Positions 19,367 to 37,869 are shown, numbered from the stretch's first letter. The stretch is DNA of 54,373 nt from Patescibacteria group bacterium (GCA_018061755.1 JAGOTP010000007.1:1-54373), one strand, 5' to 3'. Translations and numbers: made by a program. Notes: generated from the sequence alone by a model not told the origin.

Positions 19367-21097
19367 CTACTCTAGATTGAGGTTGGACAATAGATCTGTG
19401 GTTGCGGCGTCTTCTGTTTTCACGTCCTTCTCTAACACATCTAAAGCATCCGCTTCGAGACGGGAGATGTCTTTCAAGTCGGCCGTGAGCTTGGAAGCCT
19501 TCCCACGCAGTTCAGCACGACTGGCGTCACGTTGTGTTATTTGCACGATGTTGAATACATCCATATCAGCGTCTAAACGCGCGACGTCGCTGAGCGAGAT
19601 CACCAAATCATGAATCGTGCCTGTCATAACTAAACGGCCAGCGTCACGAATGGTCGAAGTGACGTTCTGCCCTTCCAGTTGGATAGTGAGACGAGCAGCG
19701 TCGCGCACGCTCAGACCGAGATCCGCTTTGAATCCATTGATCGTAGACCGAGTCGCGTCACTAGCCGTGTAGTTGAGCAAGGTCGGCATGGTCAGACTGA
19801 TTTCTAGTGGACGTGACAAGCAGAAGAGGCAAGGTCCTTGGTTCATCGCTCGGCGAGAGATGGTCAAGATTCCATCTTTTTGTACCAGAGATAAGGTCGC
19901 GACATCACGCTCTAAGCCAGTGGCTTGAATGGAATAACTCTCGCCTTGAATGACTTTTATCTGAACAGAATCAGCGGCGACGATCGAGGTAAAACCGGTC
20001 TCAGAAAATGACCGTGTAACCGTCGCTTGCTGTTCGACTTCTTGTGCGCGTTGATAGGCCCAAGGAGCGATGTCACGTAACGCCAGGGCGCTCGCGCTAG
20101 CGGCCAAGATCCAGACACCCAAGAGAACAGCCATAGGCAAGAGTCGAAAGACATTCCTTCTACGCAATAACGTTACGGCCAAGAGAATCAGACAAACCAA
20201 GGGAACGGTGAACAGCAGATAGAAACCCATGACTCCTACATGATAGAAGGGCTGCAAAGCCAGCTCCTTCAATGGAAGGTCCGAGAGAAAAAAAGGAGAA
20301 CGACTTGGGAAAAGCAACATTGTTGCGCCAATTGTCGTGAAGATGATGCCGAGAATTGTGCCAAGCAGAAGACAAACACCGATGATTGTCGTCACGATGG
20401 GCCAGACAACACGTACTACAGATTGAATGGCGGCCAAGATCGCCCCAATAATAGCAGCTGGGAGGCTAAGCATCTTTTTCCCCTCTCGCCCCATTGTTTG
20501 CGCTTTTTCTTTCACCATCTGCTCAATTTCATCAACGTTTAAGGGCTTTCCACGCATTTCAAATTTTTGTGCCTGGGTCTCCGCTAACGGCATCACGACC
20601 CAAAGAATAAGGTAGAGTAGGATCCCTAGCCCATTTACGAAAGTGAGAATGATAAAAGCGATACGGATCAATACGATACTCACACCAAAATAGGCTGCTA
20701 AACCAGAACACACGCCCGCAATCATTTGATCGTCTGAATCACGATACAAGCGTTTACGTGTGGCCGAATCCTTTTCTCGATCGTTCGTTTCAGCTACTCG
20801 CTCGCTTGCAACCGATGATGCCTCCGCCCCCTCTTCGGCCGTAAGGTCCTCTAAACGCCCCATTACACGGATGACTTCTTCAACGTCTTCTCGCGTCAAA
20901 GCTTGCTTCTGAGAGCCTAGACGGTCAGAGCACTTCTCAGCCAATCCCGTCTCGATATCGGCCATCAACTCAACTACAGAATCATCTTGTGAGTAATGTT
21001 CTTTAAGGCCATTCAGATAGGCTTCAAGTACGTGGAACCCATCCTCTTCGATCAAGAAGACACGGCCACCTAAGGTAATGGAAATGGTTTTCTTCAT
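19367..21097 (-). CDS. PspC-domain membrane protein with DUF2807-like adhesin region
   Basis: A 576-residue protein. Residues 1-100 are soluble; a PspC domain follows (RKRLYRDSDDQMIAGVCSG, then a long membrane helix and LWVVMPL), then several more membrane helices (about 215-360), and an extracytoplasmic beta-helical DUF2807-like domain (about 380-560). The PadR-PspC-DUF2807 combination is known from envelope-stress modules in which PadR represses the operon. It starts 4 nt after the padR stop; an upstream extension into padR was rejected. Confidence 0.85.
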   Translation of the reverse strand: MKKTISITLGGRVFLIEEDGFHVLEAYLNGLKEHYSQDDSVVELMADIETGLAEKCSDRLGSQKQALTREDVEEVIRVMGRLEDLTAEEGAEASSVASERVAETNDREKDSATRKRLYRDSDDQMIAGVCSGLAAYFGVSIVLIRIAFIILTFVNGLGILLYLILWVVMPLAETQAQKFEMRGKPLNVDEIEQMVKEKAQTMGREGKKMLSLPAAIIGAILAAIQSVVRVVWPIVTTIIGVCLLLGTILGIIFTTIGATMLLFPSRSPFFLSDLPLKELALQPFYHVGVMGFYLLFTVPLVCLILLAVTLLRRRNVFRLLPMAVLLGVWILAASASALALRDIAPWAYQRAQEVEQQATVTRSFSETGFTSIVAADSVQIKVIQGESYSIQATGLERDVATLSLVQKDGILTISRRAMNQGPCLFCLSRPLEISLTMPTLLNYTASDATRSTINGFKADLGLSVRDAARLTIQLEGQNVTSTIRDAGRLVMTGTIHDLVISLSDVARLDADMDVFNIVQITQRDASRAELRGKASKLTADLKDISRLEADALDVLEKDVKTEDAATTDLLSNLNLE

Positions 21098-21101
21098 AAG
21101 A

Positions 21102-21452
21102 TCAGTTAAATTTCTGGACAAGCGTCGTAATCGAAGCATCCAAAGCGCGCCACGTTCCCAGCAATTGCTTCAAAAACTGACGACCTTGTGGTGTCAGCGA
21201 ATAATACTTGCGTGGAGGTCCGCTGGTACTTTCAGACCAGTCATAGCTGAGCAAGCCTGACGTCTTCAGACGATTAAGGAGTGGGTAGACCGTTCCTTCG
21301 ACGACAATCAGATCGGCAGCGTGCAGCTCTTTTAAAATGTCGTTGGTATAGCTTTTGCCTTGCGACACAATCAGCAAGATACAAAACTCCAGAATACCTT
21401 TGCGCATCTGTGCTTTGGTATTGCTAACATCGATGGGCGGATGAAGTGGCAT
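21102..21452 (-). CDS. PadR-family transcriptional regulator
   Basis: A 116-residue winged-helix repressor. The PadR motif GTVYPLLNRLKTSGLL and the wing GPPRKYYSLTPQGRQ are present, with a short C-terminal dimerisation helix. It is the first gene of a two-gene unit with the PspC-domain membrane protein and most likely controls its own operon. A 17-bp dyad overlaps its -10 region and could be an operator. Confidence 0.9.
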   Translation of the reverse strand: MPLHPPIDVSNTKAQMRKGILEFCILLIVSQGKSYTNDILKELHAADLIVVEGTVYPLLNRLKTSGLLSYDWSESTSGPPRKYYSLTPQGRQFLKQLLGTWRALDASITTLVQKFN

Positions 21453-22598: not shown

Positions 22599-23606
22599 TT
22601 ACGGAGTAACGCCAACGCCACCGGACAATCGCGCACTGCAACCCAAGTAACAACCTGAATATTCTGACTCACAAGCTTGGGACTGAGCCGTTGGCAAGGC
22701 CAAACAACTGGTGCGGTTATCCCCACAGCGATAGACGCATTGCGCGTAGGTTTCCGTCGTTGGTGCGACTACCGGAGCAACCACCGTCGTTGGAGCTGGC
22801 GTGACGACCGGCGCAGGAGGTGGAAGCTGTAGATTTGTATTCGTTAATGTATTAACGCTCAAACGTCCATCCTCGTTAATAAACCCACTGTTCTGCATAC
22901 GATTGAAGGTTTCCGTAGCTCGGGTTGCATTTTCGCAACGTAACATACAGAACAGATAGCCAGCATCGTTGCGGTAATTACGGTCACAATCAGACTGACA
23001 AGTGAAGGCACGATTATCAAACAAGCAAGCTGTCAGGTTAGAAGACAGGGCATTTGCATAGACACCACATAATGCCGCCTGAGTTGGAAGACGTTGGGAA
23101 CAGCTTCTTGTCATACCAGCCACAGTCTGAGCTGCTGGCAGATAATCGCCATTAACTAACACGGTCGTGGCCGTCTTATCACTATAGCGTTGCGCACATT
23201 CCAGATTTCTAAGGGTATTTGACGGACAACGACTCACACATGCCACGAATGTTCGGGTGCCAACAGCGCCAAACTCACTAGCTCCCGTTGCTGATGAAGT
23301 AAAACAAGCATTGATACAACTATTGATCTGAGCGGTTGTTACTCGGCGGGTTGCGGTTGTCGTAGTTCGACCACACGAATCGTAGATTCGCTCCAACTTA
23401 GAATCGATCGCATCAAGACGAGTGAACTGCTGAGTTCGGATCTCGTTTATCGTGACACTAACCGTTGTGAAATCGCCAAAAAATCTGTTAAGAAGGTTCA
23501 AAATGGCATTCTCACCATCTGTAGCAGCATGAACTGCACGAGGAGCGCTGACCAATAAGGCACCCAACGCTAACAATCCAATGAACAAAGAGGAGGTTCG
23601 TTTCAT
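22599..23606 (-). CDS. Secreted Cys-rich protein with three twin CX3C units
   Basis: A 335-residue exported protein with signal peptide (SLFIGLLALGALLVSAPRAV, cleavage near HAA 26-28). It has about 19 cysteines. Six CxxxC motifs occur in three pairs: 97/101 with 123/127, 203/207 with 220/224, and 290/294 with 319/323. Pairs of CX3C spaced by 12-24 residues suggest disulfide-locked helical hairpins. A Pro/Val/Thr-rich linker (about 261-285) separates the third unit. No known family recognised; a surface or extracellular role is inferred. Confidence 0.75.
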   Translation of the reverse strand: MKRTSSLFIGLLALGALLVSAPRAVHAATDGENAILNLLNRFFGDFTTVSVTINEIRTQQFTRLDAIDSKLERIYDSCGRTTTTATRRVTTAQINSCINACFTSSATGASEFGAVGTRTFVACVSRCPSNTLRNLECAQRYSDKTATTVLVNGDYLPAAQTVAGMTRSCSQRLPTQAALCGVYANALSSNLTACLFDNRAFTCQSDCDRNYRNDAGYLFCMLRCENATRATETFNRMQNSGFINEDGRLSVNTLTNTNLQLPPPAPVVTPAPTTVVAPVVAPTTETYAQCVYRCGDNRTSCLALPTAQSQACESEYSGCYLGCSARLSGGVGVTP

Positions 23607-24388: not shown

Positions 24389-24796
24389 TCAGCCCTTCAC
24401 CGCTCGCGCTACAAGAACTCCAACGACAGCTGTTAGTGCTGCCACACATGCACCCCATGCCATATCAACGAGCGTCATACTGATTGGCCAATTCTTCAGT
24501 GTGGCTTGATTCGTTAAATCATAGGCTGCGTAGGCTACGCCTCCGAATAACGCCCCTAAGCCAAGGACTCGTAGTAAACTTGCCTGACTTTGCAAAGCAG
24601 GCTGGATCACAAAAACCAACAATGCTGTCACAAACAAAGGATAGAAGATTGCAACTGCCCACCATTGCACCTGATCACTCATCAAATGACCGATTTTCTG
24701 TCGGTAGAAACTGCGCGCAACAAACCCAATCCACAGACCATCAGCCAAGAGGAAACTGACGAGTGCCGCACACCAACCTGCAAGAAGAGCTTTCAT
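24389..24796 (-). CDS. DUF2177-family membrane protein
   Basis: A 135-residue protein with four membrane helices. The family hallmarks DGLWIGFVARSFY and AAYDLTNQATLKNWP are present, with WGACVAALTA in the last helix. The family is widespread and uncharacterised. ATG 24796 is preceded closely by GGAGG (3-nt gap), unusually short. The gene lies beside the 3' end of the G+C-rich radical SAM operon. Confidence 0.85.
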   Translation of the reverse strand: MKALLAGWCAALVSFLLADGLWIGFVARSFYRQKIGHLMSDQVQWWAVAIFYPLFVTALLVFVIQPALQSQASLLRVLGLGALFGGVAYAAYDLTNQATLKNWPISMTLVDMAWGACVAALTAVVGVLVARAVKG

Positions 24797-24877
24797 AGAC
24801 CTCCAGCATGCCAGATCGGTTGGGTTTTTTATAGGATAATCCCCTCTTGTCCTCGGCAAAGAGAACCCTAGAGGACT

Positions 24878-24943: not shown

Positions 24944-26626
24944 TCAGAGAAGGCGCAAGAGCTTTTGCGTGCGCGCCTCCGCGTGAGCGAGGTAGGTCGA
25001 AAAATCCTGGATCTGGCTGAGTCGCCCATCGCACAACTCGTAGAGCCTGGTCAGGCCGAGCGCCTCGATGAAGTGACGATCATGCGATACCAGAACGATC
25101 GTTCCCTTGAATGCGGTCAGCGCTTCTTCCAGCGCCTCAGCCGCTTCGAGGTCGAGATGATTGGTCGGTTCGTCGAGAACCAGCACATTCACCTGTCGCG
25201 CAGAAAACAGACCGATGAGCAAACGAGCGCGAGCGCCCGGGCTCAGAGTCGCGATCGGTTCTTCGGCTCGCTCATGCGACGTCACATGGAAGCGAGCGAG
25301 CAGATTGTAGGCGTCCATCTCGAGGAAGCCGCAGTCATCTTGCAGGAATCGCACCGGTGACAGGTCACGCGGCAGCGATTCGTGCTCCTGCATCATGTCG
25401 CCGATACGCACGTCCGCACCGATGCTCACCGTCCCCTTGAGCGGCTGAGCATAGCCCGTAAGCGTTTTGAGCAGGGTGGTTTTGCCGGTACCGTTCGTTC
25501 CCATGATCCCAAGCCGCGTACCGAGCGGGATCGACAGCGAGACGGGACCGACCGTGTGTCCCTGAGGGTATCCAGCCAAGACCGCCGAAAGATCGATGTC
25601 GCACTTCCCCTCATGGGACGAAGTACCGATGTCGATGCGCAGCGGCTCACGCAGGTGTGGACGTTCGATGCGCTCGATCTGTTCGATGCGCTGTTCGAGA
25701 GCGCTGGCGGCACGGCCAGAGCCGCCCGCACGATCACGCTTGAACCCACGCAGGAATTTGTCGTTGTCGCTGCCAGTCCAGCTTGCACCACGAACAGCGC
25801 GTGCGCGCTGGGCTTCTGCACGGGCCGTCAGACGGCCGATCTCGTCTTGTTGAGCACCATAGGCAGCGAGCTGTCCGGCGCGACGACGAGCTTGCATCTC
25901 GAGGTAGGCCGAATAGTTCCCATTCGTCACGGAAACTTTCCGGTCATGCCAGTCGAGCTCGATGATCTTGTGAGCGATCCGATCGATGAACCGACGGTCG
26001 TGGGACACGACCAGCACGGTGTGTTTCGATGCCCGCAGAAATGCTTCGAGCCAGACGACAGCCGGCAGATCGAGATTGTTGGTCGGTTCATCCAGCAACA
26101 GAACATCTGCGTCCTGCAACAGGATGTTGATCAGCCCGACCTTGTGACGCTGACCACTGCTCAGTCGCGAAACCGGCAGCAAACGTGCGGCCTCAGACAG
26201 ACCGAACCCGTCCAGCATCGTGTTGGCCCGATGTTCGAATTGGTAGCCCTGGAGACGTTCGAACGTCTCCATAACTTCTCCGTAGCGCGCGAGCGCAATC
26301 GGATCAGTTGCGAGCGCTACGGACAGCGCCTCGAGTTCGCGTTCGAGGGCGGTGATGCCCGTCGCGTCGCGCAGGAAGTCGAGCACCGGCAGATCGCTCG
26401 CCAGGCTCGTATCCTGCGGCAGATAGCCGATGCGTTCTTGGGGACCGACTTCGACCGTTCCACCGTCTGACGGGAGGAGACCCGCCAATATGCGTAGAAT
26501 GGTCGTTTTACCGGTTCCGTTGTAGCCGACGAGAGCCCCATGTTGCCCGTCACCCAGCGTGAAGGTCGCGTCCGCGAGGACGGTCGTGCCTCCATAGCTT
26601 TTCTGCAGGGCTTTGACTTTGAGCAT
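24944..26626 (-). CDS. ABC-F family ATPase (ribosome-acting, possibly protective)
   Basis: A 560-residue protein with two ABC domains and no membrane segment, the ABC-F design; members bind the ribosomal E site. Walker A motifs are GYNGTGKTT and GTNGTGKTT, and Walker B motifs are VLLLDEPTNNLD and VLVLDEPTNHLD. The first signature is LSSGQ, the second a degenerate LSPGA. An Arg/Ala-rich linker of about 80 residues corresponds to the P-site tRNA-interaction motif. G+C-rich; last gene of an operon with MTA phosphorylase and a radical SAM enzyme, which suggests self-protection or translation rescue. Start 26626 lies 7 nt after the preceding stop. Confidence 0.88.
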   Translation of the reverse strand: MLKVKALQKSYGGTTVLADATFTLGDGQHGALVGYNGTGKTTILRILAGLLPSDGGTVEVGPQERIGYLPQDTSLASDLPVLDFLRDATGITALERELEALSVALATDPIALARYGEVMETFERLQGYQFEHRANTMLDGFGLSEAARLLPVSRLSSGQRHKVGLINILLQDADVLLLDEPTNNLDLPAVVWLEAFLRASKHTVLVVSHDRRFIDRIAHKIIELDWHDRKVSVTNGNYSAYLEMQARRRAGQLAAYGAQQDEIGRLTARAEAQRARAVRGASWTGSDNDKFLRGFKRDRAGGSGRAASALEQRIEQIERIERPHLREPLRIDIGTSSHEGKCDIDLSAVLAGYPQGHTVGPVSLSIPLGTRLGIMGTNGTGKTTLLKTLTGYAQPLKGTVSIGADVRIGDMMQEHESLPRDLSPVRFLQDDCGFLEMDAYNLLARFHVTSHERAEEPIATLSPGARARLLIGLFSARQVNVLVLDEPTNHLDLEAAEALEEALTAFKGTIVLVSHDRHFIEALGLTRLYELCDGRLSQIQDFSTYLAHAEARTQKLLRLL

Positions 26627-26633
26627 AGGTCTC

Positions 26634-27458
26634 TTAGCGCTTCTTGTAGTACTCCGTGATTGTACCGGCTGCACAGTCACAGGAGAAGGTGGAGAGATGG
26701 GATCCGATCAGGTTCGTGAGGACCTGGATCATCAGAGCCGTGTTGGCATGGAAGACCTTCAGGACCTCCTCCATACCCGTCGCATCCATGCAGCAGGTCA
26801 GTCCCGTTCCGACGTCCCAGTCGGTGATGGAAGCGAAGACCGCGTAGCAGAGTCCGAGCTCGCGCGCGAACAGGCACTCCGGGTACTGCGTCATGTTGAC
26901 GATGTCCCAGCCCTGAGCGATGAACTCGCGACTTTCCGCTCGAGTCGAGAACCGTGGCCCCTGGATCACGACCGTCGTGCCGGATCCGTGAACACGGGGC
27001 ACAGAACTTGAGATCAGCGCAGCGACGCAGGCGCCCCGCAGCCTCTTGCAGTAGGGTTCCGCCATGGGCAGGTGGACGAACGATCCGTCCGGTTCGATGC
27101 TGTGGGCATCACGACCCCAGGTCCGGTTGACGAACTGATCCGGAACCACGAAGTCCCCAGGCTTGATCTCGGACTTGAGGCTGCCCGCGATGCAGGTGGC
27201 GACCACGGTTTTGACTCCAGTCCGCTTGAGCGCTGCCAGATTCGCCTTGTAGGGCACCTGGCAGGGCGCGAACTGATGCCGTGCTCCGTGGCGAGGCAGG
27301 AAGGCGACCGTCTGACTGCCCAACTCCCCGATCGTGATCCGATCCGAGGCCTGGCCGTAAACGGTCTCAGGCGTGTCGATCTGCTCCGCGTTCTTGAGGG
27401 CATCCAGCCGGTCGAGACCGGACCCTCCGATGATGCCGATGATCGGCTGTCTCTTCAT
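26634..27458 (-). CDS. mtnP: S-methyl-5'-thioadenosine phosphorylase (MTAP/PNP family)
   Basis: Cleaves methylthioadenosine, and in several MTAPs also 5'-deoxyadenosine, with phosphate. GIIGGSGLD at the N-terminus, the phosphate-site PRHGARHQFAPC, and NMTQYPECLFARELGLCYA identify the family. A C-terminal CDC pair resembles the CXC motif of thermostable archaeal MTAPs. An AAGGAG Shine-Dalgarno sequence is 7 nt before the start, and the start overlaps the radical SAM stop by ATGA. Coupling to a radical SAM enzyme makes removal of its 5'-deoxyadenosine by-product a likely job. Confidence 0.92.
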   Translation of the reverse strand: MKRQPIIGIIGGSGLDRLDALKNAEQIDTPETVYGQASDRITIGELGSQTVAFLPRHGARHQFAPCQVPYKANLAALKRTGVKTVVATCIAGSLKSEIKPGDFVVPDQFVNRTWGRDAHSIEPDGSFVHLPMAEPYCKRLRGACVAALISSSVPRVHGSGTTVVIQGPRFSTRAESREFIAQGWDIVNMTQYPECLFARELGLCYAVFASITDWDVGTGLTCCMDATGMEEVLKVFHANTALMIQVLTNLIGSHLSTFSCDCAAGTITEYYKKR

Positions 27459-28783
27459 ACTTCGTCTCCTTTCCAGTTCAGCCAGATAAGTCGTTCGAAC
27501 ATCGCCTGGGAGAATCGCGTGGTGACCTCATCCGGCGACAGGACATTTTCCCCGCAGTCGATCGCGCTCCAGGCGCAGCCCGTGCCGCTCAGCGCCTTGG
27601 TATCGTCGCCTCGAAAAACAGCGTGCTCAAGCGATGAACGGCCACGCCAGAGCTTGACGGTGTCCGTCTGCCAGACGCGGAACGTCAGGGGCAGATCACG
27701 CACCTGTCCGAAACGAGCGTTGAAGAACGGACAGTTACTGACCTGTCCATCTGCCCGGATCACCAGCTGGTTACCGTAGCAGGTGCAGTCGAGCGGAAAG
27801 AAATCCTGCTCAGCGAATGCCTTCATCTTCTTCTCGACCTGGTATTCGTATCCCCCATCCGCACACTCCTCATGACGCCGGAGAACGGCCGCCACCGAGG
27901 CCTGAGTGAAGTTAGCACGATCCGATTCAGACAGAAGCTCGAGCACAGCCCTCCCCTTCAGGAAGTTAAGGCCGAACTTGGACACTCCCACCGACTGCAG
28001 CAGTTCGCTCAGCTCACGCAGGGCGTGAAGAGAGTACGGGGTCAGGCTCGCCGAAACGGCGGTCCGCACTCCACGCGCCTGGAGCTTCTGAAGCATCCCG
28101 AGGATATCGTCGAACGTACCTCGCCCATCGGCATAGATACGGAGACGATCATTGACCCGCTTCGGGCCGTCGATGCCGAGCGCGACCAGCACGTCTCGCT
28201 CGAGACAGATCGCGATCACCTCATCGTCGATCAGCGTGCCATTGGTCGCGAGCATGAGATGCGTCCGGGTTGCCGACAGCCGACCAGCCTCTTGCAGACG
28301 ACGAATCTCTTCCAGGCTGGCGTAGAACGTCGCTTTGTTCAGAAGCGGCTCACCGCCGTAGAAGATGATGTAGTGATCCTGTTCGGGCGTCGCTGTCAGA
28401 TGCTCTGCCCAGAGACTGAGCCCTGCGCAGGCATCTTCCACTGAGAGCCTGGCCGCCTGCTCTGCTTCGGGCAGACGCGGGATCGGGCAGTAGCCGCAGG
28501 CGAAATTACAGCCCTGGGCGAGGATCAGGTAGAGCACGAGCGGAACCGACAGCTTGTCCATCAGCTGCCGCTTGACCCGAGCGAGTTCGGCATCGTCGTC
28601 TTCTGCTCCGCGCACAAGGAGCTTCCGCTCCAAGAGCTCGATCGCATAGGCGCTCACCAGAGGCTCTGATACGACTTCGATCCAGTGATCTGCACGAATG
28701 TAGAGCGGAACAGGGTGCAGCTCATGGAAAACCGCGACCCAGCCCTCTCTCACCCGAGTACAGGTGTAGCGTGACCACTCCAT
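27455..28783 (-). CDS. Radical SAM/SPASM-domain enzyme (peptide-maturase type)
   Basis: A 442-residue enzyme. An N-terminal part of about 85 residues precedes the radical SAM core with CNFACGYC (Cys92, 96, 99) and the SAM-binding YGGEPLLN. A C-terminal Cys cluster (DCTCYGNQ, SNCPFFNARFG, CAWSAIDCGEN) fits a SPASM domain holding auxiliary iron-sulfur clusters. This architecture is typical of RiPP maturases and sulfatase-activating enzymes. Start 28783 was preferred (AAAGG upstream); a longer frame to 28867 begins before a hairpin. No sulfatase gene is near, and a small Cys-containing protein is encoded just upstream. Confidence 0.88.
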   Translation of the reverse strand: MEWSRYTCTRVREGWVAVFHELHPVPLYIRADHWIEVVSEPLVSAYAIELLERKLLVRGAEDDDAELARVKRQLMDKLSVPLVLYLILAQGCNFACGYCPIPRLPEAEQAARLSVEDACAGLSLWAEHLTATPEQDHYIIFYGGEPLLNKATFYASLEEIRRLQEAGRLSATRTHLMLATNGTLIDDEVIAICLERDVLVALGIDGPKRVNDRLRIYADGRGTFDDILGMLQKLQARGVRTAVSASLTPYSLHALRELSELLQSVGVSKFGLNFLKGRAVLELLSESDRANFTQASVAAVLRRHEECADGGYEYQVEKKMKAFAEQDFFPLDCTCYGNQLVIRADGQVSNCPFFNARFGQVRDLPLTFRVWQTDTVKLWRGRSSLEHAVFRGDDTKALSGTGCAWSAIDCGENVLSPDEVTTRFSQAMFERLIWLNWKGDEV

Positions 28784-28812
28784 GGGACTCAGCCTTTCTT
28801 TGGATATGAGGA

Positions 28813-28840
28813 GGGCCCTAGCTCGAGAGAACCAGGGCCC
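28813..28840 (-). promoter_or_regulatory. Hairpin between small-protein and radical SAM genes
   Basis: GGGCCCT/AGGGCCC stem with a 14-nt loop and no T tract. It may attenuate read-through from the small gene into the enzyme gene. Confidence 0.4.
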
Positions 28841-28919
28841 GGGACGGACGCACGAATTCGCATTCATGGTCCAGTGGTGGGAGAAGCGGCGGGGAGGAAC
28901 AGGTGGAAGATCAGGCGAC

Positions 28920-29135
28920 CTAGAAGGCCACCTTCTGGAGCTGCGCGAACTGGTCCGCGCTCAGCTCGACGCGCGCGCCGTCGTCGCCGACGAGCGCGAC
29001 GCCGCCGTGCGCGAGCTCGTGGAGCGTCGGGCAGCAGCCCTGGGTGCCGCAGTCGAGGACGACCTTGCGGCCGGTCTCGGGGGCGGTGAAGGCGGGGGCG
29101 GGAACGACAGACGCGGGCGGGGGGGAGCTCATCAT
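28920..29135 (-). CDS. Small Cys-containing protein, candidate radical SAM substrate
   Basis: A 71-residue protein. The N-terminus is Pro/Ala-rich (MMSSPPPASVVPAPAF); the middle carries the cluster DCGTQGCCPTLHEL; the C-terminal part GGVALVGDDGARVELSADQF looks like a beta hairpin plus helix. GAGG 8 nt before ATG 29135 and a TTGACA-17-TACTTT promoter upstream support this start; a longer frame crosses the promoter. It is the first gene of the operon, 136 nt before the radical SAM gene. Size and position fit a RiPP-like precursor, but a free-standing metal-binding protein is equally possible. Confidence 0.6.
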   Translation of the reverse strand: MMSSPPPASVVPAPAFTAPETGRKVVLDCGTQGCCPTLHELAHGGVALVGDDGARVELSADQFAQLQKVAF

Positions 29136-29193
29136 GACGTGGGCCTCGTTGCGCAATCGGTGGCAGACGTTGCACCGTTCGCTGCGCAGAGAT

Positions 29194-29222
29194 AAAGTAA
29201 CGACCTGCCCCAATACTGTCAA
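29194..29222 (-). promoter_or_regulatory. Promoter of the radical SAM operon
   Basis: TTGACA (29222-29217), 17 nt, TACTTT (29199-29194) on the minus strand; leader of about 50 nt. The same -35, spacer length and -10 occur at 33067-33095. Confidence 0.6.
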
Positions 29223-29231
29223 TATTTCAAT

Positions 29232-29783
29232 ATGAACCTCGTCATCCTCTACGGTCCACCTGCCAGCGGAAAGCTCACCGTTGCTCAAGCCTTAGTAAAA
29301 AAGACTGGCTATGCTTTGCTGCATAATCATCTAATTGCCGACTTTGCGAGCGCCTTATTCCCGTACGGAACAGAAGCCTACGCGAATTTTTCAGAAGAAC
29401 TGCGCGTACGCGCCATTAAAAAAGCCATCGAACAAAAACTCCCCGGCCTCATCATGACCTTCGCCTATGGTTTAGAAACAAAAGATGGTCTACGCGATAA
29501 CATTGTCCTAAAAGAACTTTCGCGCATCGTTGGGAAAGCTGATGGGAAAACAACTTTTGTACGCCTCTATGCTGATCACTCGACACTCATTGAACGAATC
29601 GGGCTCCCCTCACGCCATCAGCATAAGAAACTGACAAATAAAAAGATATTAGTACGTTTGCTAAAGAACTATCGCTTGGAGGATGTGGTTCCATTTGCAG
29701 AAAGTCTGTCACTTCAAACAGATCAACGTTCCGCCTTACAGAGCACGAAAGAGATCATAAAACACCTGGGCCAGAATATTTAG
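29232..29783 (+). CDS. P-loop kinase-like protein (AAA_33/shikimate-kinase-like)
   Basis: A 183-residue soluble nucleotide-binding protein with Walker A GPPASGKLT at 8-16. The remainder is a small P-loop kinase fold (HNHLIADFASALF, then FVRLYADHSTLIERIG). The usual Ser/Thr after GK is replaced by Leu-Thr. The phosphate acceptor is unknown; small-molecule or RNA-end kinases are options. Moderate G+C like the majority genes; its ATG lies only about 10 bp from the -35 of the divergent radical SAM operon. Confidence 0.7.
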   Translation: MNLVILYGPPASGKLTVAQALVKKTGYALLHNHLIADFASALFPYGTEAYANFSEELRVRAIKKAIEQKLPGLIMTFAYGLETKDGLRDNIVLKELSRIVGKADGKTTFVRLYADHSTLIERIGLPSRHQHKKLTNKKILVRLLKNYRLEDVVPFAESLSLQTDQRSALQSTKEIIKHLGQNI

Positions 29784-37446: not shown

Positions 37447-37869
37447 ATGAAACGTCGTCTGTTTTCTCGACCACCAGCTTTTTTACTGCGGGTCGGTAAA
37501 AGTGTGGCTGGTATGGGACTGTTCGCCGCTGAACCTATCCCAGAGGGTCGTTTTATTATCGAATACTGGGGAAAAATCGCAAACGATGAAGTGAGTAACC
37601 GGGTGGCTGGTCGCTACTTGTTTGATTTAAGCAATGGCAAAACAATTCTGGGTGGCACACGTAAAAATATTGCCCGTTATGTGAATCATGCCTGTCGACC
37701 GAATGCCGAAGCTCGTCAGTACGGAAATCGTATTCATATCTATTCAAAGAAACGGATTGAAGCCGGTCAAGAAATTACGTACAACTACGGCAAAGAATAT
37801 TTCAATGCCTACATCAAACCTCATGGGTGTGCGTGTGCAACCTGTACCAAAAAGAAGAAGGCGTCGTGA
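37447..37869 (+). CDS. SET-domain protein (lysine methyltransferase-like)
   Basis: A 140-residue protein that is essentially a bare SET domain. SVAGMGLFAAEPIPEGRFI is the SET-N strand, IARYVNHACRPNAE the NHSCxPN SAM-binding motif, EITYNYG the catalytic-Tyr motif, and GCACATC a post-SET zinc cluster. Bacterial SET proteins methylate lysines of DNA-binding or ribosomal proteins. Single gene; target unknown. Confidence 0.88.
   Translation: MKRRLFSRPPAFLLRVGKSVAGMGLFAAEPIPEGRFIIEYWGKIANDEVSNRVAGRYLFDLSNGKTILGGTRKNIARYVNHACRPNAEARQYGNRIHIYSKKRIEAGQEITYNYGKEYFNAYIKPHGCACATCTKKKKAS

Follow-up and report, generated by a model that had tools for sequence, protein, structure and literature searches.

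A probable horizontally moving, RiPP-like maturation cassette with dedicated 5′-deoxyadenosine removal in reduced-genome bacteria

The window (the whole stretch of DNA analyzed, 54,373 nucleotides) lies on contig C36 of a 1.15-Mb Patescibacteria genome, whose relatives range from 0.5 to 1.6 Mb, sizes that would fit the candidate phyla radiation. It contains a cassette encoding a small CGxxGCCP protein, a radical SAM enzyme, an MTA phosphorylase (MTAP), and an ABC-F ATPase, in this order on the minus strand, with a hairpin between the first two genes (Table 1). The cassette is present in seven genomes from three families of the class and is probably a horizontally moving RiPP-like maturation cassette with dedicated removal of 5′-deoxyadenosine. 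The evidence suggests an undescribed peptide-modification system; in literature searches of incomplete coverage, no paper was found on this cassette or on any link between an ABC-F and a radical SAM peptide cassette.

Table 1. Features of the cassette in the window and Cys-rich peptides encoded upstream of related maturases at other loci.
Feature	Position	Strand	Evidence or occurrence
Small CGxxGCCP protein, 71 aa, putative radical SAM substrate	28920..29135	-	Orthologues in 7 loci and distant G425
Hairpin, 12-bp stem, 4-nt loop, candidate attenuator/processing site	28813..28840	-	Gap folding z -3.6
Radical SAM peptide-maturase-like enzyme, 442 aa, RRE-like N-terminal region, Twitch-type C-terminal domain	27455..28783	-	PF04055 8e-16
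MTA phosphorylase, 274 aa, proposed 5′-deoxyadenosine remover	26634..27458	-	PF01048 1.8e-38, TIGR01694 7e-71
ABC-F ATPase, 560 aa from likely start	24944..26626	-	NF000355, 385.4 bits versus cut-off 380
Candidate promoter TTGACA-17-TACTTT	29194..29222	-	Read in sequence; not accepted by consensus scan
Divergent P-loop kinase-like protein, 183 aa, candidate accessory member	29232..29783	+	Orthologues beside cassette in G007, G175
Cys-rich peptide upstream of related maturase	L045 5987-6199
Cys-rich peptide upstream of related maturase	L046 1252-1449
Cys-rich peptide upstream of related maturase	L048 1136-1306
Cys-rich peptide upstream of related maturase	L049 6012-6149
Cys-rich peptide upstream of related maturase	L051 8399-8605
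Cys-rich peptide upstream of related maturase	L131 3029-3196
Cys-rich peptide upstream of related maturase	L132 225-341

An earlier note, made from the sequence alone, had described a G+C-rich operon of four genes on one strand, and this layout is confirmed: all four genes are on the minus strand, the operon has a G+C content of 61.5% versus 46 to 49% in its flanks, the first gene encodes the 71-residue protein containing DCGTQGCC, and the radical SAM and phosphorylase genes overlap in ATGA, where the former stops and the latter starts. The radical SAM start at 28867 is replaced by the ATG at 28783, because orthologues begin with MxxSRYLRxREr and a start at 28867 would code across the intergenic hairpin. 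The ATG at 26626 is the more likely start of the ABC-F gene. The first reading also overlooked the divergent kinase gene adjoining the cassette. The proposed promoter combines a perfect TTGACA and a 17-nt spacer with a poor TACTTT, and it is unproven because the consensus scan does not accept it. The hairpin noticed in the window was recovered, and one is located in the same gap between the small and radical SAM genes in all seven loci (z -1.0 to -6.0). A clear T run follows it in four of the seven gaps (L040, L041, L044, and L065) but not in the window, which therefore has no canonical terminator there. Conservation of the position, but not the sequence, of the hairpin fits attenuation favoring the small product.

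Gene content, gene order, conservation, co-occurrence, and cysteine inventory are observed features of the cassette. The full four-gene order is found in G000 (the genome containing the window), G007, G013, G020, G175, and G377, while G006 lacks only the ABC-F and retains the small, radical SAM, and MTAP genes. The small gene is directly upstream of the radical SAM gene and MTAP downstream in 7/7 loci, with the ABC-F present in 6/7. Radical SAM orthologues in G006, G007, G013, and G020 belong to the same family, and those in G175 and G377 represent two others. These orthologues share 37 to 54% identity and cassette proteins overall share 37 to 57%; recurrence of order and content in seven genomes at such divergence indicates more than chance.

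The earlier note had proposed checking whether the small gene always accompanies the radical SAM gene. It does so in all seven orthologous loci, each with the small gene adjoining a maturase gene as expected of a RiPP system, and it is convincingly alone in none of the class genomes searched. A small-protein profile searched against 381 genomes of the class recovered the seven loci and one doubtful match (an internal stop in a long frame), and a radical SAM profile searched against the same number gave seven matches at E ≤ 1e-198, with the next at 1e-93. The doubtful match aside, the two genes are therefore never apart in this sample. Profile matches were not accepted in G665, where there are three stops, or in G131, with one stop in a frame of 246 codons, and a plasmid match inside flgK was dismissed as chance. 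No relatives of the small protein were found in the viral contigs or plasmids searched, and a search of 189 genomes from one other phylum gave none at E ≤ 1e-4. Loci of Bradyrhizobium, Methylobacterium, and similar organisms were also rejected, having only the generic maturase core in common with the cassette. Neither co-occurrence nor gene order proves an enzyme-substrate pairing.

Operon G+C content exceeds that of both flanks in five of the seven genomes (45 versus 28% in G377). The kinase aside, the flanks of the seven loci have no gene in common, and among the compared loci the cassette is not consistently flanked by an exporter, a protease, or a further modifying enzyme. A tree built from the seven radical SAM proteins resolves neither the family nor the transfers; transfer is therefore argued from the G+C contrast and the patchy occurrence, which indicate that the cassette probably moves horizontally between reduced-genome bacteria.

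The small protein matches no family in Pfam, NCBIfam, PHROG, or the PDB, and a model of the protein alone is uninformative (pLDDT 55). Residues C29, C34, C35, P36, D51, V56, and L58 are invariant in all eight proteins (the seven plus that of G425, a genome of another class), with the consensus CGVxGCCPxV....VxIxDDxGGxVxLTxxQW. Mean identity is 49% in its 38-residue core, 44% in the enzyme, and 50% in the ABC-F, so that the small protein is no less conserved than its enzyme. There is no hypervariable core, which is the main reason for doubt over a classical bacteriocin, and the cysteines are mid-sequence rather than C-terminal. Conservation together with the lack of an exporter or protease argues against a simple secreted bacteriocin and, unlike variable-core precursors, the protein resembles those of systems with one fixed product.

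The radical SAM enzyme carries CX3CX2C at C92, C96, and C99, invariant in the seven orthologues. The SPASM Cys cluster of the earlier note stands for AuxI only. C333, C335, C351, and C403 are the only invariant C-terminal cysteines in the seven-way alignment and, by motif and profile alignment, match the anSME AuxI ligand positions (C255, C261, C276, and C330 in anSME [PMC6231123]). The AuxII cysteines are absent: the enzyme lacks CX2CX5C and the last Cys, in columns nearly invariant in 11 distant SPASM proteins. Retention of AuxI ligands and loss of AuxII indicate a Twitch-type rather than a full SPASM enzyme, with a single auxiliary cluster predicted from the sequence; SkfB provides a documented precedent for a Twitch enzyme carrying one such cluster (PMC6231123). 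The best NCBIfam neighbors are FibroRumin (7.7e-30) and PapB (3.6e-27), all far below cut-off, and no NCBIfam maturase or precursor cut-off for known sactipeptide or ranthipeptide families is reached (best score of 104 bits versus a cut-off of 400).

A structure model of the enzyme (mean pLDDT 62), built on an alignment of distant relatives only, which is weaker than orthologues would give, finds its best solved relatives among maturases. It matches CteB (VIA Z 22.5, rmsd 3.5, 302 aligned), TigE over its full length, including residues 1 to 80 (8vpo; Z 18.8, rmsd 6.2, 368 aligned), and ChlB, anSME, and SkfB over the core and C-terminal domain. Matches to viperin were discounted as generic domain matches. 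Residues 6 to 77 are modeled as three strands followed by helices, an RRE-like order at a pLDDT of only 50 to 65, and the N-terminal region carries a conserved FHELHPxP; searched alone, the N-terminal domain gave no sequence match.

The closest comparison is with the SPASM/Twitch radical SAM maturases SkfB and CteB, which are sactisynthases among the best structural matches, and with the epimerase EpeE. Features in common are a radical SAM core, an auxiliary cluster domain, a small Cys-bearing partner gene directly upstream, and, tentatively from the low-confidence model, an RRE-like N-terminal region. Unlike these, the window enzyme is far below every NCBIfam maturase cut-off and keeps only the AuxI ligands, in the pattern DCxCYGNQ...NCPF...GCAW; its partner is unrelated to known precursors, and MTAP and ABC-F genes are attached. 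PapB and FibroRumin-type maturases, the best profile neighbors, likewise have a Cys-containing small partner, and PapB has been called a homologue of SPASM enzymes, with two or more additional clusters (PMC9413430). In contrast to the PapB peptide, that of the window has CX3H and no repeated CX3D motifs. Spacing of the CX3D/E type (CCP-x-V-D/E) occurs in five of the eight small proteins, and PapB-type CX3D chemistry was rejected because the D/E position is not conserved.

The phosphorylase scores below the curated TIGR01694 cut-off, and its nearest solved relatives are the archaeal and human MTAPs. It contains NMTxxPE and TDWD, which includes the 6-aminopurine Asp (TDxD); the second Asp is Ala in G013. 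MTA phosphorylase is an established entry point for 5′-deoxyadenosine, which inhibits radical SAM enzymes as their product (PMC8102628, PMC10986504), and MtnP, of the same family, opens its salvage in Synechococcus (PMC8102628). MtnP has a general housekeeping role there, whereas the window MTAP is tied to a single radical SAM gene and missing from those members of its family (f1) that lack the cassette. It is the only PNP-superfamily gene found in the window genome, and PF01048 gives only distant members in a few other genomes. MTAP-grade matches within f1 occur in exactly the five cassette genomes, while radical SAM domains, mostly two to six per genome, are present in nearly every f1 genome searched, with or without the cassette. 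The MTAP is therefore not explained by radical SAM chemistry in general, and the phylogenetic profile supports a dedicated form of the by-product clearance that the earlier note had proposed, as a predicted activity. MTAP is also present in some other genomes of the class that lack the cassette. Removal of 5′-deoxyadenosine by the phosphorylase, as predicted from its family and context, is the simplest reading. The phosphorylase C terminus (26634-26700) carries a CxCA motif kept in 7/7 orthologues; a CXC motif is known in an archaeal MTAP.

The fourth protein had been called an ABC-F ATPase, and it passes the NCBIfam model ribo_prot_ABC_F. It has two ABC domains, as do YheS, YbiT, EttA, and resistance ABC-F proteins, and its nearest solved relatives are YheS, YbiT, EttA, and PoxtA. 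It differs from those proteins in being the sole ABC-F detected in these genomes at E ≤ 1e-60: among 57 relatives, none was found beyond the four cassette loci, although more divergent ABC-F proteins could fall below this threshold. PADLOC matches were set aside as generic domain matches. Self-protection and joint action at the ribosome are both candidate readings of its inferred role. The P-loop kinase is found in only 3 of the 57 relatives (the window genome, G007, and G061), being divergent from the small gene in the first two and located elsewhere in G061. It directly follows the ABC-F in G175 and is a candidate accessory gene, again with an inferred role. G245 (L130 5336-6320) contains a C-terminal 125-aa remnant of a cassette-type ABC-F (51% identity). 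The P-loop kinase follows this remnant, and a radical SAM gene accompanied by another type of Cys-rich peptide lies ∼2.7 kb further on; we read the locus as a decayed or rearranged cassette.

In a phylum-wide sample, G425 has an ABC-F, a small protein with CHIDQNCCPEV, and a radical SAM maturase in adjacent genes. This maturase belongs to another, geopeptide-like subfamily (E of 2e-48), and the locus has no MTAP; a TrpD-like phosphoribosyltransferase follows. Linkage of the small protein to the ABC-F is thus maintained with maturases of two radical SAM subfamilies. Within the class, radical SAM enzymes of lower similarity (24 to 31% identity) have a Cys-rich peptide encoded directly upstream in several loci (Table 1). 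Many of these peptides end in C(Y/Q)T(S/A)C(T/S)RC and look like a separate, undescribed peptide family, and the related maturases compared carry fuller SPASM cysteine sets than the window enzyme. The latter belongs to this broader group of small-peptide-linked maturases.

For the favored RiPP-like cassette, the proposed substrate and chemistry have good support, and the following mechanism may be put forward. The small protein would be made in excess over the enzyme, given the hairpin after its gene, and would be bound through the RRE-like N-terminal domain. With its SAM cluster and one auxiliary cluster, the enzyme would then carry out radical chemistry on the Cys motif, a thioether link or another SkfB/EpeE-type modification being the likeliest product. 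The translationally coupled phosphorylase would split inhibitory 5′-deoxyadenosine so that turnover continues, in a host cell presumed to have no other known enzyme for this compound. The ABC-F may act at the ribosome, either protecting it from the modified peptide or working with it, a step in which our confidence falls somewhat short of even. The peptide-modification pathway of the earlier note is thus retained in outline, as a conserved cassette with a dedicated phosphorylase, but without a full SPASM domain. If this is true, reduced-genome bacteria, whose biosynthetic chemistry has hardly been explored, would hold a new class of small protein modified by a radical SAM enzyme. Furthermore, disposal of an inhibitory by-product would be built into the operon, making relief of radical SAM product inhibition testable at one locus, and the linked ABC-F would provide a direct lead to the target of the product, the ribosome.

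The same conservation and lack of an adjacent exporter or protease would also fit a modified small protein with a conserved role inside the cell rather than as an antibiotic: a carrier, a precursor of a cofactor, or a small protein associated with the ribosome, working with the ABC-F in translation. The G425 locus, where ABC-F and small protein occur together despite a different radical SAM subfamily and no MTAP, favors this explanation, but a core factor would not usually have so patchy and apparently transferred a distribution, and G006 keeps the small gene, enzyme, and MTAP without the ABC-F; we consider it possible but doubtful. A transferable translation-linked module, in which the radical SAM enzyme with its one auxiliary cluster converts the conserved small protein into a modified factor acting with a dedicated ABC-F at the ribosome, and a dedicated phosphorylase from the same transcript clears the radical by-product, is unlikely.

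Alternatively, the small protein may be a helper, such as an electron or cluster carrier using CGxxGCC, with the true substrate elsewhere. Its three invariant cysteines and compact conserved sequence are compatible with such a role, as is the weak support for the RRE-like domain. However, a standard four-Cys cluster would need more than three cysteines, evident Cys-rich precursors occupy this position beside related enzymes, and no other gene common to the loci could be the substrate, making a helper quite improbable. It is very improbable that the neighborhood is accidental, or a single transfer of unrelated genes, with the MTAP serving general MTA salvage and the ABC-F general translation. 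Although MTAP in cassette-free genomes of the class would fit, gene order is kept in the seven genomes despite their divergence and different flanks, and in f1 both MTAP and ABC-F are absent outside the cassette.

Several neighboring genes deserve mention. The G425 row (L068 6890-13428) comprises the ABC-F, CCP small protein, geopeptide-like radical SAM enzyme, TrpD-like transferase, a P-loop ATPase, an autoinducer-synthase-like GNAT, and a ThiF/E1-like protein, and may be read as a second, richer version of the system. In the window, a DUF2177 membrane protein is encoded directly downstream of the cassette (24389-24859) and is absent from the other loci. A 335-aa protein that looks secreted, contains repeated Cys-rich blocks, and matches nothing in Pfam is encoded at 22599-23606, and a PspC/DUF2807 membrane protein gene overlaps that of a PadR-type regulator upstream (19367-21452). 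In addition, a small SET-domain protein (37447-37869; 1.8e-21) is 67% identical to one encoded near the G020 cassette.
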